NCBI GenBank assembly: GCA_016936535.1
Contig: JAFGXP010000017.1
Coordinates: forward strand, 124,001-188,000
Direction: 5' to 3'
Length of the DNA: 64,000 nucleotides
Source of the DNA: Thiotrichales bacterium
Lineage (GTDB): Bacteria > Pseudomonadota > Gammaproteobacteria > Thiomicrospirales > Thiomicrospiraceae
The position numbers and the translations under genes were made by a program. Under the pieces are notes generated by a model. The model was not told the origin of the DNA. It made no database searches and saw only the letters and a program-made list of their open reading frames with translations. How positions within the stretch are numbered: the first letter of the stretch is position 1; every line of letters begins with the position of its first letter. This document shows positions 6,287-17,726 of this stretch, in pieces.

Positions 6287-6641
6287 GCGCTCTCCCTATT
6301 ACTGCATAAATAAGGCCAATATCATACCGTAATTGAGCGAACACGAACAGACGACCTATTTACTGCCCTCCATTCATCAACACATAAGAAAACAGTTAAA
6401 TATCGAAATTAGTGCATTGCGAAATTAAATAGTCCAACGACGCCCCAAAAAATCAAAATATCAGTAAATAAGCATATTAAAAAATAATAAATTAATAATA
6501 AAATCAAACACTTAAATAACAAAAATTCTCGTTTTTTACTTATATAAACCATGCTGAGCGAACGATAAAAATTCTTTAAATGCTTAATTTGTAAAGATTT
6601 ATTACCTTAGAAAACGTCGCTAATTTGGAGTGCGTTTTACC
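6287..6641. other. AT-rich intergenic region upstream of the RND locus
   Basis: About 355 bases without a gene. The stretch 6400-6600 is strikingly AT-rich compared with its surroundings, with many A and T runs and a TATATAA-like element at about 6541-6547 that could serve as a -10 box. It must carry the divergent promoters for folD and the RND gene train. No operator or riboswitch was recognised. Confidence 0.5.
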
Positions 6642-7820
6642 ATGTCTGTATTCAAATCTTCCGTTCTTTCAACCTGGACTTTGCCAGTTGCCTTTGTCCT
6701 GATGACCAGTAATGCAGTGGCCTCAAGTACTGGCAAAATCGAATTTTTTTCGGTGAAAGAGGCAGCGTTTGATCAAACCGTGAAACTGGGAGGCACCGTC
6801 ATCCCCTTTAAAAAAGTCACCATCACCGCACAGACCGCAGGACAAATTGATTTTCTCTCTGGGCATGAAGGTGACAGTTTCCCATCGGGTAGCTTATTGG
6901 TTTCGGTCAGCGATACCGCATTGCGCGCTCAGCGTGAAGCCGCTTTAGCCCAGCTCAATCGCGCCAAGGCAGCCCACCAAAATGCTGTCAATCAATACAA
7001 CCGCGAGCTCTGGGCCCCCAAAGCAGAACAACCTATGCCTGGAATGGCGCTGCCGAATTTAATGGATCAAATGTTCACTCGCCCAATGGGGCAAGGAATG
7101 GGAATTGGTAACCAAGAGGTGGAAAAGCGCGCAGACCTTGCTAATGCCTCCAGCCAAGTTCAACAAGCTCTGGCCGATATTGCGATGGCTCAAGCAAAGA
7201 TTGATGAGATTGAGGTGCGCTTAAAAGACACCAAGTCCACCGCGCCTTTTGATGGTGTGATTGTTGAAAAAATGATTGAAGCCGGCGATACGGTGCAACC
7301 TGGCCAACCCTTGATGGTGTTTGCAAAAAGCAATCACCTCAGTATTGAACTCAATGTCCCCGTCAATTTGATGCATGGTCTGCAAAAGGGTCAGGTCTTT
7401 AATGCGCGTATCGGCCAAGGCGGTTGGATTCCGGTTCGGGTATCGCAAGTTTATCCCGTGGCGGACGGCAAACAGCATACGGTCATCGTCAAGCTCGATC
7501 TGCCATTAGGGGCAGCGGCGGCGCCAGGAATGTATGCGCAAGTGGTGTTAAAAAATGCGCAAGCCCAGGGCCGGAGTTTTCCAGTCATTCCCAAAAGCGC
7601 GGTGGTTAAGCGCGGCAGTCTGCCCAGTGTGTTCGTGTATCAACCCGATACCGCCAAAGTGACCATGCGGGTTATTCGCACGGCCGAGGCAGCCGATACC
7701 ACGCAATTGAGCGTGCTCTCAGGCTTAGTCAGCGGTGAACAAGTGTTGATGAACCCTCCGGCGGGCCTGGTTTCCGGCGATGAAGTTCGCAATGGTGAAT
7801 GGATTCCCAGTCGAAATTAG
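6642..7820 (+). CDS. RND efflux periplasmic adaptor (membrane fusion protein)
   Basis: A 392-residue adaptor with an N-terminal signal peptide (cleavage likely after SNAVA, about residue 28). The order is lipoyl half-motif, helical hairpin, second lipoyl half (STAPFDGVIVEKMIEAGDTV), beta-barrel and membrane-proximal domain, as in the HlyD/AcrA family. The hairpin carries an unusual insertion at about residues 131-157, rich in Met, Pro and Gly (MPGMALPNLMDQMF then RPMGQGMGIG). The frame is open from a GTG at 6630, but the ATG at 6642 has GGAG at 6627-6630 and starts a proper signal peptide. No outer-membrane channel gene accompanies it, so a TolC-type partner must be encoded elsewhere if one is used. 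Confidence 0.9.
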   Translation: MSVFKSSVLSTWTLPVAFVLMTSNAVASSTGKIEFFSVKEAAFDQTVKLGGTVIPFKKVTITAQTAGQIDFLSGHEGDSFPSGSLLVSVSDTALRAQREAALAQLNRAKAAHQNAVNQYNRELWAPKAEQPMPGMALPNLMDQMFTRPMGQGMGIGNQEVEKRADLANASSQVQQALADIAMAQAKIDEIEVRLKDTKSTAPFDGVIVEKMIEAGDTVQPGQPLMVFAKSNHLSIELNVPVNLMHGLQKGQVFNARIGQGGWIPVRVSQVYPVADGKQHTVIVKLDLPLGAAAAPGMYAQVVLKNAQAQGRSFPVIPKSAVVKRGSLPSVFVYQPDTAKVTMRVIRTAEAADTTQLSVLSGLVSGEQVLMNPPAGLVSGDEVRNGEWIPSRN

Positions 7821-7920
7821 CGCCTTTGATGATACTCAAAACGCCCCTTTACTTTACTGATTTCCTAGCTTTTTAGCAGGAACGATTGGCCGAAGAGTCG
7901 GCCCTAGAAGGATTTTGCTT

Positions 7921-10900
7921 ATGGCGCATTCTGATTCAAGTCACGATATTGCCGGCTCCATTGCCCGCAACTATATTCGCTCTCCACTCACGCCCCTGCT
8001 GTTAATTGCCAGTTTTTTAATTGGGATTTTTGGTGTGATGATGACTCCACGGCAGGAAGACCCCCAAATTTCGGTACCGATGGCCGACATTATGATTCAG
8101 TATCCCGGTGCCTCCGCTAAACAGGTTGAGGCTTTGGTTTCTGAACCTTTGGAACGTTTGCTTAAAGAAATTGATGGGGTAGAACACGTCTATTCGGCGT
8201 CAATGCGCGGCCAAAGTCTCATTACGGTGCAGTATAAAGTGGGCGAGAATATGGAAAAAGCCCTCGTGAACCTGTACAACAAAATGTCATCTAATGCCGA
8301 CGTTGTGCCACCTGGCATCCAACAGCCATTAATTAAACCTAAGGGCGCAGATGATGTTCCGATGATTACCTTTACCTTATCGTCGGATGTGCTGGACAAC
8401 AGTCAACTGCGTTTAATTGGCTTAGATGCTTTGCAAGCCTTGGGAGAAATTGATGGCGCGTCACAGGGCTATGTGATCGGCGGCGAGCCAAGCGAAGTCA
8501 AAATTAAAGTCCTACCCGAAAAACTATCCGGGTATCAACTCTCTTTAACTGACATCGGTATGGCGATTCAAGCTGCGAACAGCGAACTGGAAACAGGCTC
8601 GATTGAAGCTTGGCAAAAAGTGTTTACCGTCTATACCGGCGATTTCCTGCGCAGTGTTGAAGACATTAATAATCTGATTATTGCCATTCACAATGGTGCA
8701 CCGGTTTATGTTCGCGATATTGCTGAGGTCACAGCGCAAAATGCTGATGTGACGCGACAGGTTAATTTTTACACTGGCCCCGGATATGCAGGGGAAGCTC
8801 CAGCGGTAAACGGTCGCAATGCCATCACCATTGCCCTAGCCAAAAAACCCGGTACCAACGGCGTGAGTGTGGCACAGGACGCGATTGAACGAATGCAGCA
8901 GTTGCAAGGGGTCGTGATTCCACCAGAAGTTTACCTAAGCATCAGCCGCAACTATGGTCAATCGGCGAATGACAAGGTCAACAACCTCATCCTCAAACTT
9001 TTTATCGCCACTGGGGCCGTGACGCTACTGGTCTGGTTATTCTTGGGCTGGCGTGCGGGAACCGTGGTGGCGATTGTCATCCCTTCCGTTATTTTATCCA
9101 CTGTTTTTATGGCTTGGATTCTTGGTTTCACCATTGATCGCGTCAGTCTATTTGCCTTGATTTTCTCAATTGGCATTTTGGTTGACGATGCCGTTGTGGT
9201 GCTCGAAAACATCTATCGTCGCTGGCTGCTTTCAAACAAGTCCGATGATGCGACCTCGGTTTCTGCGGTTGCCGAAGTTGGTAACCCAACCATCATTGCC
9301 ACGCTTGCGGTCATTGCCGCATTAATGCCAATGGCCTTCGTAAGCGGCATGATGGGTCCCTATATGGCGCCCATTCCTGCCCTTGGCTCAGTGGCAATGT
9401 TTATTTCGCTGTTTGCGGCCTTCGCTTTCACCCCTTGGCTAGCAATGCGCATTAAACCGAGCATGGCTTACCTGCACAAAGCAGAAGAAAAAGAACATCG
9501 ACAAGCCGAACAATTTGAACGTATTTTCCGCAAAATCATGAATACGCTGCTGGGCACAAAAGTCAAAGGTTGGGGCTTTTTGGTGGCGATTTTGATTGCT
9601 TTCGCGATTTCAGTCTCGTTGATTTACAGCACTCTGGTGCCGGTAAAGCTTTTACCCTTTGATAACAAACCTGATATGAGCGTGGTGATTAACTTTCCGG
9701 AAGGCACTGCCATGCCCGTCACTGCGAACTTAACCCACACCCTGGTGAAAGCACTCCAAGAGATTCCTGAGGTCAGCACAATGGAATCTTATGTTGGCAC
9801 CGCTGCGCCCTTTGATTTCAATGGTTTGGTACGACACTACTACCTTCGTCAGAACCCATGGGAAGCCGATATTCAAATCCATCTCGTTGGTCTTGATCAG
9901 CGCCAACGCTCGAGTCATGAGATTGCCGAGGCGATTCGCGAACAGCTTCGTCCCTTGGTGAAAGACAGTCCAGCCACGCTGCAAATTGTGGAAATGCCTC
10001 CTGGGCCGCCAGTGTTGCAAGCCGTGGTTGCAGAGGTTTATGGCCCTGATGAAATCAGCCGCAAAGCCGCAGCACAACAGCTAACGGATACCTTCCAACA
10101 GGCCAACAATCTTAGTGATGAAGATAACTTTTTGAGCAGCCCTTATGAGTCTTGGCGCTTTGTAATCGATAAGCAGAAAGCCTTAGAAAGTGGCATCAGT
10201 GTCGCGACCATCAACCAAACCCTGAAAATGGCGATGGGCGGTTACAAGCTTGGTGATGTAAAACAAGGATTTGTGCGTGAAGCCACTTACATTACGCTTG
10301 AAGTGCCTTTAGAAGTACGCATTGATTTTGCCCGCTTGGGAACGATTCCAGTTAGCTCTGGCCAAGGAACCACCGTCCCGCTTTCAGAACTAGGAAGCTT
10401 TGAAATCGAACAAGAGCAAGGTGTGATTTACCACAAAGATCTAATGCCGGTGGAATATGTCACCGCCAACGGGATTGGTCGGCTAGGGGCTCCCATTTAT
10501 GGCATGCTTGAGGCGCAAGATTTGTTGAACCAAAATGCCGAAACCGAAGGTTTAAAAGGTCAGTTCATCAGTCGTCCCGACGGCGTGCGTGAAACCGGCT
10601 TTATGTGGGCCGGTGAATGGACCGTTACCTACGAAACCTTCCGCGACATGGGCTTGGCCTTTGGCGTTGCGCTGCTGATTATTTATATGTTGGTAGTGTG
10701 GGAGTTCAAAAACTTCATGATTCCATTGATTGTGATGGCCCCAATTCCTCTGACCTTAATTGGTATTGTGCCGGGTCACTGGTTGATGGGCGCTGAATTT
10801 ACCGCCACCTCAATGATTGGTTTTATCGCTTTGGCCGGAATTATTGTGCGTAACTCCATCTTGTTGGTCGATTTTACTCGCCAAGAACTGGAGAAAGGAT

Positions 10901-11526
10901 TGTCGGTCAATGAAGCCGTGATTCAAGCCTGTAAAGCACGGACACGGCCGATCATTATTACGGCTGCCGCTTTGGTCTTGGGCTCAAGTGTGATTCTGTT
11001 TGACCCGATTTTCCAAGGCATGGCAATCTCGTTAATGTTTGGGGTAATCGTTGCCACACTCTTAACCTTAGTGGTCATTCCGTTGGGTTGCGTGAGCGCA
11101 CGCCAAGCGTTTGAACAAGATTGCGAATCAACAGGTTGTCAAGCCGCCCCCGCAGCGAAAGAAAATTCCGAGCCATCCGCTCCAGAATTGTCTAACACCT
11201 CGATGGTGATTCCTTCAGCGGAGCAAAAGTCTATAGCCGAGGAAAAACCGACTGATAGTCTGATTCAAAGCAGTGATCCTCACTTAGCTCTAGTGAACCA
11301 TGCCGATGACCAACAACAACGCCTAGCTGAGACCTGTCAAGGTTGTTGTGGACCAAAAACCGATGCAACCGACAAGGACTTATCGGCAACATCTGGTCCC
11401 GTCAATCACCCTCAAGAAGAGGCTGACTGGGCTTCACCAACTCTGCAGCAGGGTTCTAGTCGCAAGGCGCTCCGCGCTCAACAAGATGCCAAAACGCATT
11501 TAAAGGAAGAAAATGATGAAAATTAA
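7921..11526 (+). CDS. RND-family inner-membrane pump with Cys-containing C-terminal tail
   Basis: A 1201-residue protein. About 1057 residues are a normal RND transporter: TM1 near the N-terminus, two large periplasmic loops, and a TM2-6 segment containing SIGILVDDAVVVLENIYRRW, whose Asp pair is typical of the proton relay. The last 144 residues are extra: hydrophilic, Ser/Gln/Glu-rich, with CESTGC and CQGCC clusters, and predicted cytoplasmic. It resembles the AcrB/HAE superfamily broadly; I see no methionine cluster or other feature that assigns a substrate. The start ATG at 7921 has AGAAGGA at 7906-7912; the frame also opens at TTG 7915. It overlaps the next gene by 14 bases, which argues for one operon. 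Confidence 0.9.
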   Translation: MAHSDSSHDIAGSIARNYIRSPLTPLLLIASFLIGIFGVMMTPRQEDPQISVPMADIMIQYPGASAKQVEALVSEPLERLLKEIDGVEHVYSASMRGQSLITVQYKVGENMEKALVNLYNKMSSNADVVPPGIQQPLIKPKGADDVPMITFTLSSDVLDNSQLRLIGLDALQALGEIDGASQGYVIGGEPSEVKIKVLPEKLSGYQLSLTDIGMAIQAANSELETGSIEAWQKVFTVYTGDFLRSVEDINNLIIAIHNGAPVYVRDIAEVTAQNADVTRQVNFYTGPGYAGEAPAVNGRNAITIALAKKPGTNGVSVAQDAIERMQQLQGVVIPPEVYLSISRNYGQSANDKVNNLILKLFIATGAVTLLVWLFLGWRAGTVVAIVIPSVILSTVFMAWILGFTIDRVSLFALIFSIGILVDDAVVVLENIYRRWLLSNKSDDATSVSAVAEVGNPTIIATLAVIAALMPMAFVSGMMGPYMAPIPALGSVAMFISLFAAFAFTPWLAMRIKPSMAYLHKAEEKEHRQAEQFERIFRKIMNTLLGTKVKGWGFLVAILIAFAISVSLIYSTLVPVKLLPFDNKPDMSVVINFPEGTAMPVTANLTHTLVKALQEIPEVSTMESYVGTAAPFDFNGLVRHYYLRQNPWEADIQIHLVGLDQRQRSSHEIAEAIREQLRPLVKDSPATLQIVEMPPGPPVLQAVVAEVYGPDEISRKAAAQQLTDTFQQANNLSDEDNFLSSPYESWRFVIDKQKALESGISVATINQTLKMAMGGYKLGDVKQGFVREATYITLEVPLEVRIDFARLGTIPVSSGQGTTVPLSELGSFEIEQEQGVIYHKDLMPVEYVTANGIGRLGAPIYGMLEAQDLLNQNAETEGLKGQFISRPDGVRETGFMWAGEWTVTYETFRDMGLAFGVALLIIYMLVVWEFKNFMIPLIVMAPIPLTLIGIVPGHWLMGAEFTATSMIGFIALAGIIVRNSILLVDFTRQELEKGLSVNEAVIQACKARTRPIIITAAALVLGSSVILFDPIFQGMAISLMFGVIVATLLTLVVIPLGCVSARQAFEQDCESTGCQAAPAAKENSEPSAPELSNTSMVIPSAEQKSIAEEKPTDSLIQSSDPHLALVNHADDQQQRLAETCQGCCGPKTDATDKDLSATSGPVNHPQEEADWASPTLQQGSSRKALRAQQDAKTHLKEENDEN

Positions 11527-12331
11527 AACACGCTCTTGGCTATCTGCCAGCCTAATCAGCACTGCGCTTTTTACCGGCGCCGCCCAGGCACAATATTGGC
11601 CTCAACCCGAACAAGCCTATCAAGGTGGGTTGCAGAGCCCACAATGGGTTGAGCAGAATGCATACACAGCTCAACGCAGCTATCCAGCTCATTCGGTACA
11701 AGGTGGGTATGGCGCACCCGCATATGCTAGGGTACAAGCGGTTGCGGTAAACACGCCCTACACCCAAAACGGCTATGCACAAACGCCTTATGCAGCTAGC
11801 ACACCGCAAACGTGGCCTGGCTACACAACACAATCTTACTCTGGAGTAGCAACGACACCACAGGCTTATCCAACTCAACCCAATTCAGCTTATCCAGCGC
11901 CCAGCTACGGGTATGGTTATGGTTATGCGCCCACACCACAGACTTATGGCTATGCTCCCGCACCCTATGGGTATGGCCAACAGCCAATGCCGAATGGGTA
12001 TTACGGCGCAATGCCCAATACTTGGAACAACGGGCCTTGGAACAACGGAGGGGCGGGCTATCCGCTCCCCCCTTCAAATTGGAATTTTGCCAATCTCAAC
12101 CCGTTTGACCGAAACAACAACGGATTTGGCAATGGCTTTCCAAATTTTCCAAACTTCAACAACTTTGAGATGCCCAGCCCCCCATTCAATATGCCAAATA
12201 TGAGTATGCCAAATATGAGTATGCCAAATATGAGTATGCCCAATATGGGATTCCCTGGCAGCGGCTTTCCTGGAATGGGCTTCCCAAGCATGGGAATGCC
12301 ATCGATGGGAATGCCGAGCATGGGTTGGTAA
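11513..12331 (+). CDS. Secreted Pro/Tyr/Gly/Asn-rich protein with Met-Pro repeats
   Basis: A 272-residue low-complexity protein with a clear signal peptide (cleavage after GAAQA, about residue 26). The middle is rich in Tyr, Pro, Gly, Gln and Ala (YGYGYAP, YGYAPAPYGYG). The part from about 195 is Asn/Phe/Gly-rich (FGNGFPNFPNFNNF), and the C-terminus is a run of MPNMS units followed by GFPGMGFPS and MGMPS units. No enzyme fold is visible. The composition recalls sulfur globule envelope proteins (Sgp/CV type) and other structural secreted repeat proteins; this is a resemblance, not an identification. AAAGGAAG precedes the start; ATG 11516 is equally possible. Confidence 0.75.
   Translation: MMKIKTRSWLSASLISTALFTGAAQAQYWPQPEQAYQGGLQSPQWVEQNAYTAQRSYPAHSVQGGYGAPAYARVQAVAVNTPYTQNGYAQTPYAASTPQTWPGYTTQSYSGVATTPQAYPTQPNSAYPAPSYGYGYGYAPTPQTYGYAPAPYGYGQQPMPNGYYGAMPNTWNNGPWNNGGAGYPLPPSNWNFANLNPFDRNNNGFGNGFPNFPNFNNFEMPSPPFNMPNMSMPNMSMPNMSMPNMGFPGSGFPGMGFPSMGMPSMGMPSMGW
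12191..12240 (+). repeat. Three tandem 15-bp repeats coding MPNMS
   Basis: The unit ATGCCAAATATGAGT occurs three times in direct succession, and a diverged fourth unit follows. Being identical at DNA level and a multiple of three, the array can expand or shrink without breaking the frame of the secreted repeat protein. Confidence 0.9.
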
Positions 12332-12352
12332 GCTTTTTTACTCTTTTTATCA

Positions 12353-12387
12353 TCAACTGGCTCTGTGCTCGGTCAGTTGAGTTTTTT
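12353..12387 (+). terminator. Rho-independent terminator or attenuator inside the gene train
   Basis: TCAACTG (12353-12359) pairs with CAGTTGA (12374-12380) around a 14-base loop, followed by G and six T. It sits between the two secreted-protein genes, so it probably sets different transcript levels upstream and downstream. Confidence 0.65.
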
Positions 12388-12416
12388 ATACGAGCATAAC
12401 TTAGGAGAATGAAGCA

Positions 12417-13028
12417 ATGAAAATGACAACAATCGCAATCGCCCTTTCTACCCTCGCTTTAGGCACCACTGCCCAAGCCAATTGGGGTGGCAACCCATGG
12501 GGTGCAAACCAAGGCTATGGCAATCAGCAAGGTCAGATGCAAGGGCAAATGGACCAGTACCGCCAAGGCCAAGGTCAAGCACAGGGTCAGGGCCAAGGTG
12601 ACGGTCAAGCGCAAGGCCAAGGAAAAGGCAATGCAAAAGGATCCTTCAATTTTGGCTTCAATGCCGAGTCGGACATGCAAGGACAAGCAGATGGACGTGG
12701 TCAAGGCAACCAAAACACCCAAGGTTACGGCCAAGGATACGGTCAGGGACAAGGCTATGGTCAAGGTTACGGGAATGGCAACGGTTATGGTTACGGCTAC
12801 CCAGCCTATGGTCAACCCTATGCACCAATGCCTTATTACTATGCGCCACAACCCATGCCAAATATGATGCCAATGCAACCGATGCCAATGCCTATGCAGC
12901 CAATGCCTGCGCCTAATATGGCACCGATGGCACCGATGCCAGCGCCCAACATGATGCCACCGCAAGCGGCTCAACCAGCTCCTGCTGCACCCGCAGCTGA
13001 AAAAACAGAAGACAAACCAAAGTCTTAA
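12417..13028 (+). CDS. Secreted Gly/Gln/Tyr/Met-Pro-rich protein
   Basis: A 203-residue protein. The signal peptide ends at about TAQA (residue 21). Blocks follow: WGGNPWGANQGYGNQQ, a Gly-Gln repeat region (GQGQAQGQGQGDGQAQGQGK), a short FNFGFN segment, Gly-Tyr-Gln repeats (GYGQGYGQGQGYG), and a Met-Pro section (MPMQPMPMPMQPMP) with an Ala/Pro-rich charged end. It shares the signal peptide, Gly/Tyr-rich core and Met-Pro end with the preceding gene, so the two are probably partners or distant paralogues. Sulfur-globule-like or cell-surface structural proteins are the nearest analogy. No function can be assigned from sequence. The start ATG follows AGGAGAATGAAGCA. Confidence 0.75.
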   Translation: MKMTTIAIALSTLALGTTAQANWGGNPWGANQGYGNQQGQMQGQMDQYRQGQGQAQGQGQGDGQAQGQGKGNAKGSFNFGFNAESDMQGQADGRGQGNQNTQGYGQGYGQGQGYGQGYGNGNGYGYGYPAYGQPYAPMPYYYAPQPMPNMMPMQPMPMPMQPMPAPNMAPMAPMPAPNMMPPQAAQPAPAAPAAEKTEDKPKS

Positions 13029-13079
13029 TGATAAGTGGCCTCGGCAAGTGCGTAATTGAACGTGCCGAGGCTAGATTTC

Positions 13080-13121
13080 GGTTCAACGCCCTGATTAACA
13101 AGGGCGTCCTGAACCCTTTTT
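13080..13121 (+). terminator. Strong rho-independent terminator
   Basis: Nested stems GGTTCA/TGAACC and ACGCCCT/AGGGCGT (13080-13115) are followed by CTTTTT. A further inverted repeat, GCCTCGGCA/TGCCGAGGC, lies just upstream at 13038-13071. Together they separate the secreted-protein genes from the TPR-like gene. Confidence 0.8.
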
Positions 13122-13192
13122 AACGCTTTTGCTGAATCGTCTTACCGACAAGAGACGCTTGAGCAAAAAGTAAGTTTTATGGAGTTAACCAA

Positions 13193-13978
13193 ATGTTTTT
13201 ATTGCGCTTTTTGCTTAACCATAGCTTTATATTCTTGCTCGCGTTTTTGGTGTTTGGACTGTCTCATTTTTACTTTGGTTCAACATCGCCTGCTTCGACA
13301 AGCTCATCTCTCAAATCGAATGCACCTGCCGCTTTGACAACGCACTCAAACGACGCTCCGCGCAACCTTGAAGCCCCCATAAGCCCATCGGTTCTAACCC
13401 CTGAAAAAAACCCAAAACAAGATTTAACGCTCGATTCGGTCACGCCTCCCCATTCAACACAAACTCTGATACCAGAAACGATCGAGTTTCCCGATTTGGA
13501 AGGGCAGACCACGCCAACCGCACCGTCCGTAGCGCAGCAAAAACTGCCACAAAATCAATTCCCTTCTTATGATGATCACAAGGAACCCTTAACGGCAACT
13601 CAAGCGCCCTCCTTAGCCCCGCAGCAACTGTTATATTTAGCCAGAGCGGCCGTAGATCAGGGGCAGCTCGAACAAGCACAACACTACTACACGCAAATGC
13701 TTCAGCAATACCCAAGCGCTGAGCTTTTAAATGAAATTGCTAGTCAACTCTACCGGGTCGGCGACTATGAACGGGCTCAACTGGCTTGGGTCGAAGCCTT
13801 GACTTTTTTACGCTATGAAGGCCGTTATCCAGAAGCTCAGCAACTGCTGCGGTATTTAGCGCAATTGACGCCGCAAACCTATCAAAACATCCTTCAGCAG
13901 TATCCACATTTGATCATGGTGCCTTCTGCTTCCAGTGCGCAGTCGCCTTTGCATCCATCCTATTCACCGATTCATTAA
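13193..13978 (+). CDS. Membrane-anchored TPR-like protein
   Basis: A 261-residue protein not recognised as a named family. One N-terminal transmembrane helix (about residues 8-28, FIFLLAFLVFGLSHFYF) is followed by a Ser/Thr/Pro/Gln-rich linker to about 140. A helical region (about 143-235) then fits two to three tetratricopeptide units (LARAAVDQGQLEQAQHYYTQ, YRVGDYERAQLAWVEAL). The end is Ser/Pro-rich. With one N-terminal anchor, the TPR part is likely periplasmic. GGAG at 13181 sets the ATG at 13193. It is followed after 21 bases by the coiled-coil gene, which suggests a shared transcript and a scaffold role; that role is inference. Confidence 0.7.
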   Translation: MFLLRFLLNHSFIFLLAFLVFGLSHFYFGSTSPASTSSSLKSNAPAALTTHSNDAPRNLEAPISPSVLTPEKNPKQDLTLDSVTPPHSTQTLIPETIEFPDLEGQTTPTAPSVAQQKLPQNQFPSYDDHKEPLTATQAPSLAPQQLLYLARAAVDQGQLEQAQHYYTQMLQQYPSAELLNEIASQLYRVGDYERAQLAWVEALTFLRYEGRYPEAQQLLRYLAQLTPQTYQNILQQYPHLIMVPSASSAQSPLHPSYSPIH

Positions 13979-13999
13979 CCCCTTAAAAGAAGACCCTTT

Positions 14000-14710
14000 A
14001 TGACTTTAGAATCTAAACCACAGCAAAACAACGACAATCCGACTCTCGTCCCGCCGCTTAGCGCTGCAGAGCAAATTACCCAACGCCATTCTGAAAATAT
14101 CGACCGTTTAGCATTGACGATGACCCATGGCATTCGCCGTTGGGAAAAGGTGATTTATCCAATGATGATTGCCTTTATTGTTTTGGCAATTTATGGTTTT
14201 TATCTAATCTACAACGTAACTCGGGATATGAATCAAATTACCAATAATATGGGCGCAATGACCGGTGCCGTGGTAGAAATTACTCAAACACTCAGTCAAA
14301 AAATGAACCAAATCGACCGTCAAATGGGGGCGATTAATATTCACATGGATAAGATGAATCAAAATATTAGCGCCGTTCCCAGTCTTGACAACAATATTGG
14401 TTTAATCACGCAATCTCTGCAAAACCTTAATCAACAAGTGACGGTCATGACAGAAAACGTTGGTCAGATGAACCAATCCGTTGGGCAAATGAATCAATCG
14501 GTGTACAGTCTTAACCATGCGGCAGGCAATATGAGCAACCATCTTGGTGAACTCAATCACAACTTCTCCGGCCCAATGAATGCCTTTAACTCGGTAATGC
14601 CTTGGTCGTTTATGCCTAACTTTAGCGGCAATCCATCATATTCGCATCCAGCGCCAGCTCCTTATTATCCAGTACCGGCTTCTCATCCCATTCCTGCCTC
14701 CGCCCCATAA
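14000..14710 (+). CDS. Membrane-anchored coiled-coil protein with Pro-rich tail
   Basis: A 236-residue protein of unknown function. A cytoplasmic N-terminal stretch (about 1-48) leads to one transmembrane helix (about 50-72, VIYPMMIAFIVLAIYGFYLIY). A long Met/Asn/Gln-rich coiled coil (about 73-195) carries recurring MNQ units such as VGQMNQSVGQMNQSVYSLN. The last 35 residues are Pro/Tyr/Ala/His-rich (HPAPAPYYPVPASHPIPASA), echoing the low-complexity ends of the secreted proteins upstream. It lies 29 bases before the dynamin-like GTPase gene, a pairing that suggests a membrane-remodelling complex; this is inference. Confidence 0.7.
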   Translation: MTLESKPQQNNDNPTLVPPLSAAEQITQRHSENIDRLALTMTHGIRRWEKVIYPMMIAFIVLAIYGFYLIYNVTRDMNQITNNMGAMTGAVVEITQTLSQKMNQIDRQMGAINIHMDKMNQNISAVPSLDNNIGLITQSLQNLNQQVTVMTENVGQMNQSVGQMNQSVYSLNHAAGNMSNHLGELNHNFSGPMNAFNSVMPWSFMPNFSGNPSYSHPAPAPYYPVPASHPIPASAP

Positions 14711-14739
14711 GACCACGCTACCTTGAAAAGAGAGAGATC

Positions 14740-16161
14740 ATGACGCCACAAGAACGCTACCAAAAGCTCAGCGCACTCTTAATGCAAGAAAGTCCAGAAC
14801 TGGTGGAGGTCTTAAGTGAGTACCAACTTTTAGACAAGGTCGGCTATAAAACGGGGCTGCTCAAACCGGAACACTCTTATGCAGAGAGCCTTTCTTGGTG
14901 GCCACTGATCTCGGTACTGGGAACCTTTTCCGCCGGTAAATCGAGTTTTATTAATGGCTTGATTGGGAAAAAAGTACAAACCACAGGCAACCAAGCCGTG
15001 GACGACAAGTTCACAGTTATCTGCTATGGCAATCAAGAAGCGGTTCTAACCCTTCCGGGGTTGGCACTGGATGCCGATCCGCGCTTTCCGTTTTATGGAA
15101 TCAGTGCTCAAATTGAGAAGGTTGAACAAGGTGAAGGCAAACGACTTGACAGCTATCTGCAATTGAAAACAACGGCTGCTGATATATTACGTGGCAAAAT
15201 TCTGATTGACTCTCCTGGTTTTGATGCCGACGCCCAGCGCAATGCTACGCTACGGATGAGCAAACACATCATCGACCTCTCAGATCTCGTGTTGGTGTTT
15301 TTTGATGCACGCCATCCCGAACCTGGGGCTATGCGCGATACCTTAAAGCATTTGGTACAGGCCACTCGACAGCGCCACGATGCCAACAAAATTGTCTATA
15401 TACTGAACCAAATCGATACGGCGGCGAAAGAAGACAACCTTGAAGAAGTGATGAGTGCCTGGCAAAAAGCCTTGGCTTCAGAAGGCTTAGTCGGCGGGCA
15501 CCTGCTCGCACTCTATCACCCCGCTGCCGCCGATCTCGGCGAGAACGCCTCTGTCAATGAGCGTTTTGCCAGACGGCGTGAACAGGATATGCAAGCCTTG
15601 CTCACACGGATGGAAAAGGTTCAAGTAGAACGTAGCTATCGGATTATCCATAGCTTAGAAAATTTGGCGCATGAAATCGAGTGGGTGCAAATCCCCAAGC
15701 TTAAAAACGAACTCAAGCGCTGGCGACTCCAGGTTTTGAGCATTGAGGCAGCCCTTCTGGCGACACTCATCAGCTTACTGACAACTCTATGGTTTCTTTA
15801 CGATTTCAATATCGCATCTATCACGGAGTCATCGATTTGGGCGCTTTTACAAAATTCAGCGATATTTGGATTTTCCACTGCACTGCTTTTGTTTTTCAGC
15901 ATTTTTGCGATGCATCATTGGCTTAGGGCTCAGCTGGTTCGCAGACGACAAACTCAACTTCAACAACAAAACGAACACGCGCTTGCCGATGCGCTGGCAT
16001 TCAATACCCCTTTTTGGCGAGGAATGTTCTATGCCTCACCGCGTGGCTGGAAAACCAAAACGCGTAAATGGCTGAGTAAAATTCATCAGTCAGCTAAAGC
16101 ACAAATTCAACGGCGAAACGACCGATATACCAATCCCAGTGGCGAAACCCTTCTCAAGTGA
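14740..16161 (+). CDS. Dynamin-like GTPase with C-terminal membrane hairpin
   Basis: A 473-residue protein of the bacterial dynamin-like / LeoA-type group. G1 is GTFSAGKSSFINGL (about 61-74), a candidate G2 Thr lies in the TTGNQAVDD segment, G3 is DSPGFD (about 157), and the G4 position reads LNQID (about 222), a variant of N/TKxD. Helical sequence follows, then two hydrophobic segments (about 337-358 and 370-395) that form a membrane hairpin, and a basic cytoplasmic end. Such proteins bind and shape membranes in a GTP-dependent way. Most bacterial dynamins occur as pairs; only one is present here. AGAGAG precedes the ATG. It is the last gene of the train. Confidence 0.85.
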   Translation: MTPQERYQKLSALLMQESPELVEVLSEYQLLDKVGYKTGLLKPEHSYAESLSWWPLISVLGTFSAGKSSFINGLIGKKVQTTGNQAVDDKFTVICYGNQEAVLTLPGLALDADPRFPFYGISAQIEKVEQGEGKRLDSYLQLKTTAADILRGKILIDSPGFDADAQRNATLRMSKHIIDLSDLVLVFFDARHPEPGAMRDTLKHLVQATRQRHDANKIVYILNQIDTAAKEDNLEEVMSAWQKALASEGLVGGHLLALYHPAAADLGENASVNERFARRREQDMQALLTRMEKVQVERSYRIIHSLENLAHEIEWVQIPKLKNELKRWRLQVLSIEAALLATLISLLTTLWFLYDFNIASITESSIWALLQNSAIFGFSTALLLFFSIFAMHHWLRAQLVRRRQTQLQQQNEHALADALAFNTPFWRGMFYASPRGWKTKTRKWLSKIHQSAKAQIQRRNDRYTNPSGETLLK

Positions 16162-17092: not shown

Positions 17093-17285
17093 TTGATAAG
17101 CGTATTTGAGTTGAGCGAACGCAACGCTTGCAGGCCAGCGCTTCCAATAATGGAGCCATCTTTAGCGAATGAGAGATGGTCTATGGACTTTTTATCGGAT
17201 CAACTCGCCAATGGCCAACGGTTTAGAGTGCTCAATGTTGTTGATGATTACACCCGAGAAATGATTCTGAGTTCACATCCAAAGC
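17093..17285 (+). pseudogene. IS3-family transposase (OrfB) fragment
   Basis: About 60 codons contain NERWSMDFLSDQLANG and RFRVLNVVDDYTRE, the integrase-core region of IS3-group OrfB proteins, with both catalytic aspartates of the first two DDE positions. Homology ends after TREMILS; the frame stays open to 17668 by chance, running into the tRNA-Ser gene. It is a decayed remnant next to the IS256 fragment. Confidence 0.75.
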
Positions 17286-17599
17286 CATGTTTTTCTGGTC
17301 AAAAGAATTTGGTATATGGCTTGTTTAATGACTGTAATTTGCGGCGCCTTGCATCCGTTAGCGTGGAGCGCTCTTTGACAGATTCGTACCCGTGGGAACC
17401 GCACATTTTTGGAAATTTTCTGAAAGCCCCGATTTTTCGGTGGTGTCCAAAAAAAGCGGGAAAATTGAATGCGGATAATGGGCAAGTGGTTTCGTCACTC
17501 TCAAGATTCCCCATTTTTTATCGGCTTTTGACACACACTTTGCAGCGCACAATACTCGTCAGCACACCTAAGTCGTTGATTTTACATTCTTTCAGGCAT
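17286..17599. other. Intergenic remnant region without recognisable gene
   Basis: About 310 bases between the IS3 fragment and the tRNA-Ser terminator. Short frames exist on both strands but show no domain or ribosome site. It is probably degraded mobile DNA, judging by its neighbours. Confidence 0.45.
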
Positions 17600-17622
17600 A
17601 AAAAAACCCGTTTAATACGGGT
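17600..17622 (-). terminator. Terminator of tRNA-Ser
   Basis: The stem AACCCG/CGGGTT around TTTAATA ends, on the minus strand, in seven T. It lies 14 bases past the CCA end of tRNA-Ser. Confidence 0.85.
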
Positions 17623-17635
17623 TAATTTAAGAATA

Positions 17636-17726
17636 TGGCGGTGGACTAGGGATTCGAACCCCAGGTAGGCTATAAACCTACAACGGTTTTCAAGACCGCC
17701 GCCTTAAACCACTCAGCCAGTCCACC
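17636..17726 (-). tRNA. tRNA-Ser (anticodon TGA)
   Basis: A 91-base class II tRNA with a long variable arm (GTAGGTTTATAGCCTAC). The acceptor is GGTGGAC/GTCCACC, the anticodon loop reads CTTGAAA, and CCA is encoded. Confidence 0.97.

Follow-up and report, generated by a model that had tools for sequence, protein, structure and literature searches.

A run of seven plus-strand genes in a 64,000-nucleotide stretch of DNA from a Thiotrichales bacterium (assembly GCA_016936535.1, contig JAFGXP010000017.1, positions 124,001 to 188,000; hereafter the window) is probably, with a probability of about 0.6, the local version of a conserved operon for the assembly, anchoring and cargo handling of sulfur globules. 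The run spans positions 6630 (or 6642, depending on the adaptor start) to 16161 of the window, which belongs to a 2.12 Mb draft genome, and it encodes the adaptor and permease of a resistance-nodulation-division (RND) pump, two secreted low-complexity proteins, a TPR protein, a coiled-coil protein and a dynamin-like GTPase (Table 1). The genes are linked in related genomes, the permease belongs to a distinct RND subfamily, the adaptor of this subfamily carries a Met/Gly/Pro-rich loop, and the subfamily is associated with sulfur oxidation and with sulfur globule proteins (SGP). The successive gaps of 94, -14, 85, 164, 21 and 29 bases confirm the short spacing of consecutive genes described in the first-pass annotation. 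Its assignment of the parts to families holds, except that the anchor of the coiled-coil protein lies at residues 52-70 and not at the very N-terminus.

Table 1. Features of the seven-gene run in the window
Feature	Position	Strand	Basis or remark
RND periplasmic adaptor (HlyD/MFP), Met/Gly/Pro-rich loop at alpha-hairpin tip	6630..7820	+	Pfam, NCBIfam
Adaptor start	6630 (GTG); 6642 (ATG)		in-frame ATG 6642 is the likely start
Adaptor hairpin-tip insertion, Met/Gly/Pro-rich	7014..7112	+	residues 125-157 counting from ATG 6642
RND permease, HAE-type, distinct subfamily, cytoplasmic tail of ~140 residues	7915..11526	+	Pfam, subfamily score gap, tree
Secreted protein 1, Pro/Gly/Tyr/Asn/Met-rich	11513..12331	+	slot, WPQxE signature
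Terminator-like hairpin followed by T run, between the two secreted genes	12353..12380	+	pattern match
Secreted protein 2, Gly/Gln/Tyr/Met/Pro-rich, SGP-like by slot and layout	12417..13028	+	homologues, slot
TPR protein, single N-terminal membrane anchor	13193..13978	+	Pfam, hydropathy, cluster conservation
Membrane-anchored coiled-coil protein, DUF948-like (sub-threshold), Pro-rich tail	14000..14710	+	Pfam, conservation
Dynamin-like GTPase, two hydrophobic segments, possible membrane hairpin	14740..16161	+	Pfam, hydropathy

The permease scores 497.2 bits against ACR_tran (cut-off 28) and contains in the fourth transmembrane segment (TM4) the Asp-Asp motif SIGILVDDAVVVLENI, which we take to be the proton relay of HAE-type pumps and which places it among them. 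Tripartite pumps of the HAE1 type include AcrAB-TolC, TriABC and MdtABC; the window pump shares with them the permease family, the TM4 motif and the adaptor architecture, and most of the solved chains nearest to it belong to HAE multidrug pumps. No RND permease model of NCBIfam exceeds its cut-off, the best being NF033617 (474.8 bits against 1250). Heavy-metal export of the CusA/CzcA kind, one of the roles that had been suggested for the run, was rejected, since TIGR00914 gives 246.3 bits against a cut-off of 701.45 and the TM4 motif is presumably of HAE type.

Across the 274 genomes of the class that were searched, RND scores are bimodal, with one group at 49-60% identity (at least 1128 bits when complete) and the other at 46% identity or less (at most 950 bits). 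The higher-scoring group forms a single clade in a tree built by a quick method (SH-aLRT 100), and thus differs from HAE1-type pumps in being monophyletic and in sharing no more than 46% identity with the remaining RNDs in the class sample. The window permease falls within a subclade of 28 rows (support 98), many of which show the cluster. Another subclade, of ten permeases (support 94), is without the cluster, and seven of these are second copies in their genomes; at its loci (L117, L121, L124, L108, L138, L145, L148, L143, L135 and L139) an adaptor with a related loop is present and the remaining cluster genes are absent. In a plasmid search with the permease, which gave at least 5000 records, the 5000 taken were all below 60% identity, and the ten listed had 39-43%. 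A long Lys-rich cytoplasmic tail was seen in many permeases of the subfamily (such as L041, L028 and L069), ending by regular expression in an RRGIRLK-like motif in 46 of 79; the motif is a possible docking motif. L041 and L069 belong to the cultured cluster bearers Sedimenticola selenatireducens and Cocleimonas flava, respectively. Several members of the window's own family have KRGIQLK; the window permease lacks it and has a Cys-rich CQGCC stretch.

The subfamily is closely associated with sulfur oxidation. SoxB was found in 113 of the 274 genomes (115 matches, from which two below the cut-off, in G171 and G265, were dropped and a partial one in G099 was kept), DsrA in 91 (86 over the cut-off and five below it) and Pfam SGP in 42 (41 over the cut-off). 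Of the 55 genomes with the RND subfamily, 53 have SoxB or DsrA, the exceptions being G219 and G238 (55% complete), and 47 have DsrA. It is also associated with globule proteins: the subfamily is present in 38 of the 42 SGP genomes against 17 of the 232 without SGP, and each of the four SGP genomes that lack it (G042, G186, G187 and G233) has an RND-bearing genome of the same family in the sample. SGP occurs in 1 of 70 genomes that carry another RND (E of 1e-200 or less) and not the subfamily. Sampling about one genome per GTDB family (158 genomes, G000-G158 minus G053, by the listed family numbers), which controls phylogeny only roughly, gave soxB and/or dsrA in 31/31 RND-positive genomes, and the RND in 23/24 SGP genomes against 8/134 others; when only sulfur oxidisers were counted, the figures were 23/24 with SGP and 8/48 without. 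SGP places within 10 kb of the subfamily RND number 15 of 119, all of them within 3.3 kb and distributed over 14 genomes, and in other genomes several of the SGPs next to the RND exceed the Pfam cut-off (for example, 32.1 bits). Photo_RC, searched to find phototrophs, had no match in 55 and 44 genomes, respectively (99 genomes).

An association with sox and dsr would also fit a pump for detoxification efflux of polysulfides, organosulfur compounds or metal-sulfide complexes, with the secreted proteins and the GTPase serving envelope upkeep under stress. The HAE type of the permease agrees with this explanation, as does a report on Azospira suillum, in which, according to the accessible part of the paper, RND pumps increase when H2S is oxidised (PMC5358917). 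The RND genes of its SQR-RND operon (Dsui_3440-3443) are highly expressed under this condition, and H2S oxidation was no slower once the operon had been deleted, as far as the same part describes it (PMC5358917). This operon differs from the run in the window by a sulfide:quinone oxidase and a protein of unknown function, with no anchors or GTPase named in that part. Efflux, however, would leave unexplained why SGP predicts the RND among sulfur oxidisers, why SGP genes lie beside it, why the adaptor tip is altered and why no channel gene is found among the seven; it is an unlikely explanation.

The adaptor exceeds the cut-offs of Pfam HlyD_D23 (55 bits) and RND_mfp (154.5 bits against 94.9). 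In known pumps, the hairpin tip of the adaptor docks TolC. The short canonical docking tip is not found in the window's adaptor subfamily, where the tip is occupied by a loop of the type PGMGxPsmFDqmFTRpm. Across 73 adaptors of the subfamily, the window included, the aligned tip segment has a median of 75 residues and a mean of 5.5 Met, whereas in 20 control adaptors the median is 43 residues and the mean 0.45 Met, although one control reaches 99 residues. A loose tip motif matches 70/73 subfamily adaptors, 12/12 of the window's own family and 0/20 controls. The Met-Pro stretch noticed earlier in the adaptor corresponds to a conserved insertion that is absent from the controls. The AlphaFold (AF2) model places the loop between helices 92-124 and 158-196 (pLDDT 81, pTM 0.49; loop blocks at pLDDT 47-57). 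A further difference from HAE1 pumps is that a Pfam scan found no outer-membrane channel or factor gene among the seven; channels elsewhere in the genome were not sought.

Conservation of the neighbourhood was tallied at loci with at least 7.5 kb downstream, leaving out the partial RND loci L150-L152, and six downstream families were scored (LolA-like, ParA, TPR, coiled coil, GTPase and DUF302). The evaluable loci were 8 of 13 in the window's family, 24 of 52 from other gammaproteobacteria, 16 of 20 from other classes (20 loci fetched, from 39 genomes with the RND), 7 of 10 in the cluster-less subclade and all 20 ordinary RND loci. Two or more downstream families were present at 8/8, 17/24 and 11/16 of the first three groups, against 0/7 in the cluster-less subclade and 0/20 ordinary loci, where one locus has DUF302 and one a TPR match. 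The permease has 13 relatives in the window's family, at 63-80% identity, and their loci keep the order adaptor, RND, secreted proteins, (ParA), TPR, coiled coil and GTPase as far as the contigs reach (with L220, L225 and L226 cut short). In all 8 family loci that extend far enough, the genes for adaptor, RND, TPR, coiled coil and GTPase stand in a single run. Of the 14 RND-positive genomes of the family, 13 have the coiled-coil gene, the sole miss being G291, whose locus is cut by a contig end; of the 48 RND-negative ones 10 were tested, and none has it. When named genomes were scanned with the GTPase, 9 of the best 80 of 557 loci had the adaptor, the RND, the coiled coil and the GTPase together, many others being short or cut. 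The proposal that these genes form a unit, conserved as neighbours in related genomes, is thus upheld, with the GTPase as a separable member that also occurs alone.

The retention of the run across families and classes, and the way in which the coiled coil tracks the RND, also argue against a loose neighbourhood of independent envelope functions, in which only the adaptor and the RND, and perhaps the TPR and coiled-coil proteins, would act jointly. Such a neighbourhood is very unlikely, even though the GTPase is often solo, parts of the cluster come and go (ParA, for instance, is lacking from the window and from the two relatives nearest to it) and a terminator-like hairpin separates the two secreted genes. 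Because of this hairpin, a single transcript of seven genes is uncertain. The call itself is weak, with 6 such hairpins found in the region against 13.7 expected in shuffles; the hairpin may set the relative amounts of the secreted proteins, lower read-through or mark a separate transcript.

Both secreted proteins have a signal-peptide-like start (by inspection, with no prediction program). Secreted protein 1 contains 14.7% Pro; its mature part starts near QYWPQPE, and its C-terminal end consists of MPSMGMPSMGW repeats. It has no Pfam or NCBIfam match. A protein with WPQxE in the same slot was detected by regular expression at 9 of 13 family loci and by eye at two more (L216 and L227), and was not found by pattern or eye at L224 and L226. 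Secreted protein 2 contains 18.2% Gly and has a homologue in the same slot at all 13 fetched family loci. This slot, shortly after the RND and before ParA or TPR, is the one taken by SGP-like proteins, and the layout of the protein also resembles theirs, with the signal-like start, Trp-Gly, a central FNFGFN, Gly-Tyr repeats and an Ala/Pro tail. Formal membership of Pfam SGP was rejected, the score being below the cut-off. An SGP-like profile was then made from 23 proteins chosen by pattern from the fetched loci; on leave-one-out, 22/23 score 17.2-111.4 bits, and L112 scores -20.3, under its own shuffles. Against this profile secreted protein 2 reaches 9.3 bits, a score attained by 0/1000 full and 2/1000 block shuffles, and secreted protein 1 has no match, 729/1000 shuffles reaching its score.

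The same profile was applied to Allochromatium vinosum, where it gave 69.7 and 57.2 bits for genes at about 0.42 and 2.18 Mb, and no match near the expected position of sgpC. From their expected positions by locus numbers, we infer that the two genes are sgpB and sgpA, which would make the SGP-like cluster proteins homologues of the coat-protein family in the accessible literature. SgpA, SgpB, SgpC, SgpD and Pfam SGP resemble the proteins studied here in being secreted coat proteins rich in Gly, Tyr, Trp and Asn. They differ in that no RND, anchor, GTPase or ParA partner was found for them in the accessible parts of the open-licence literature, in the below-cut-off score of secreted protein 2 and in the exporter beside sgpD. 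According to the accessible part of PMC10386293, sgpD adjoins a hydrophobic/amphiphilic exporter, and the next gene is not sulfur-regulated. The locus was located through the terminator sequence given there, which was matched once among 210 genomes from G141's order, and the gene before the terminator fits SgpD, with a mature start at Trp. As support for the cluster this exporter was dropped: it is a different RND, with 298 bits against at least 1583 for complete subfamily members, and its adaptor is an ordinary one of 58 bits with no Met loop. G141 and G254, from the same family as A. vinosum, do have the subfamily RND.

The remaining proteins of the run are predicted to be in the inner membrane or the cytoplasm. 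The TPR protein exceeds the cut-off of Pfam TPR_2 (30.8 bits) and has a hydrophobic segment at residues 2-20; the coiled-coil protein is just below that of DUF948 (33.8 bits against 37.2). The GTPase belongs to the dynamin superfamily, with Dynamin_N over the cut-off (60.4 bits), P-loop, DSPG and NQID motifs and a predicted membrane-inserting segment. Its hydropathy profile shows two hydrophobic segments, 332-350 and 373-391, which may form the membrane hairpin proposed earlier. These features it has in common with bacterial dynamin-like proteins and EHD ATPases, and its profile also matches EHD4 and EHD2 chains weakly; it differs from them in its compact family (473 residues) and its score of 24.8 bits against NF052648 (cut-off 1600). 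Mean column identity in the family is 60% over 26 members from two phyla. Among the best 80 of 557 loci, the cluster GTPase points to Thiomicrorhabdus sp. 6S3-12 (60%) as the nearest named relative, and the window's cluster GTPase groups with Thiomicrorhabdus and with a solo paralogue in its own genome. A cluster-specific GTPase was rejected, as the family stands alone in most Campylobacterota loci, including Sulfurovum and Hydrogenimonas, and in the window genome.

Other lineages add a ParA-type ATPase, a LolA-fold carrier, an SCP2-like protein, DUF302 and more secreted Pro/Gly/Tyr-rich proteins. At the loci of the GTPase scan, all of these except the SCP2-like gene lie among the shared genes. 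In the window and in the two relatives nearest to it (L216 and L217), no ParA gene separates the secreted genes from the TPR gene; the only ParA-like protein of the window genome, 26% identical, sits elsewhere. The predicted model of the periplasmic beta protein, which occurs in other lineages and not in the window, has a pLDDT of 88.5, and its Foldseek matches are LolA, EPDR1, RseB and LprG (best E 6.9e-07, query TM-scores about 0.2-0.4), folds that bind hydrophobic ligands. The SCP2-like protein was seen upstream of the adaptor at L034:9200-9592 and at 34 other loci; members are 56-90% identical to the first of 17, with no Pfam family over the cut-off, and the name is a weak one, 1/17 matching Pfam SCP2 (E 0.0092). 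The cluster was also observed within the phylum outside the class (L229-L246), with SCP2-like, LolA-like, ParA and coiled-coil genes and with SGP-like proteins at L229 and L246; no GTPase match was found in these stretches.

Sulfur globules are the best supported of the roles that had been suggested for the run, and a periplasmic coat with anchoring of the sulfur deposit to the inner membrane is likely. The secreted proteins would form or line the envelope of the deposit on the periplasmic side, and the TPR and coiled-coil proteins would tether it to the inner membrane. The Met/Gly/Pro tip of the adaptor may replace the TolC-docking tip and contact the coat rather than an outer-membrane channel. 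More speculatively, the proton-driven pump could carry hydrophobic cargo, for example lipid or sulfur chains, from the inner membrane to the coated deposit or back, with the LolA-fold carrier assisting in many lineages, the GTPase could curve the membrane around the deposit, and ParA, where present, could apportion globules to daughter cells. The fullest form of this scheme, a dedicated globule organelle operon in which a repurposed RND with a coat-docking adaptor, the LolA-fold carrier, scaffolds, GTPase and ParA would make, tether, fill or empty and pass on periplasmic globules, is put forward tentatively.

A location outside the cell would suit some of the same proteins. The secreted proteins resemble low-complexity coats, members of the window's family excrete sulfur, and the window genome has no DsrA match; a surface coat might attach cells to elemental sulfur or excrete it, with the pump and adaptor moving material outward. 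For such an extracellular system, an outer-membrane channel is missing among the seven genes, and the anchors, GTPase and ParA are predicted to be inner-membrane or cytoplasmic. Moreover, the DsrA pathway, present in 47/55 bearers of the RND, re-uses stored sulfur. This explanation is quite unlikely, and periplasmic globules are preferred.

Several observations weigh against a globule operon in the window. Identity and direction of the pump's cargo are guesses. In the window genome SoxB is present, DsrA has no match and no Pfam SGP reaches the threshold, and the globule role is less sure for this genome itself. Secreted protein 2 reaches 14.8 bits against the cut-off of 26.7 for Pfam SGP (PF17228), and none of nine family homologues exceeds it (eight at 15.1-17.3 bits, one not listed). 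Most SGP places lie away from the RND. In the 435 kb of A. vinosum examined, a partial coverage, the subfamily RND was not found, the single RND there being split over two stretches (963 and 215 bits, near controls); since the exporter beside sgpD is also another RND, SGP genes need not be near the cluster. SgpD sits on sulfur globules and yet is not essential for globule formation, according to the accessible part of PMC10386293. The RND is present in only 14 of 62 genomes of the window's family and is therefore not required for sulfur oxidation there. Among adaptors from other classes, the tip motif is matched in only 7 of 20. At 7 of the 24 evaluable gammaproteobacterial loci, the downstream families number fewer than two: L140 and L147 are second copies, whose other copies (L090 and L105) have cluster genes; L134 and L136 are two copies of G015, of which L136 has a divergent GTPase as well as secreted genes; a single downstream family is present at L100 and L130, and none at L115. 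The GTPase is solo in 21/23 Campylobacterota rows (by our labels), and the second copy in the window genome, 59% identical, is also solo (G000:C24:6001-6504; L153:5197, minus strand), next to what we take to be a ModE-like gene.

Just past the cluster, the open reading frame 17093-17668 has a partial integrase-core match (rve, 27 bits, cut-off 32.6) and is perhaps a transposon remnant.

Each part of the cluster is a known kind of protein; their assembly and the tie to globules appear to be new. No description of the cluster was found in the accessible parts of the open-licence literature, including PMC10386293, PMC5358917, PMC11267869, PMC10892978, PMC10609205 and PMC7787665. Sulfur-oxidising bacteria and symbionts commonly store sulfur as globules, of which only the coat proteins are named in the accessible parts of that literature. 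The cluster bears on how sulfur is transferred in and out, and how globules are enclosed, held and shared at division; an operon with a pump, carrier, anchors, GTPase and ParA would provide named genes for each of these steps. The RND subfamily and its adaptor loop are a genomic marker that predicts globule proteins, and the pump may represent an RND system that operates without an outer-membrane channel.

The present cluster would work in a way comparable to magnetosome gene clusters and to the ParA systems that position carboxysomes, with a transporter, TPR and membrane-shaping proteins and a partition ATPase around an inclusion. Cargo and parts are different, and no homology is claimed. If the proposed role is true, the globule operon would be for sulfur a parallel to what the magnetosome genes are for magnetite.

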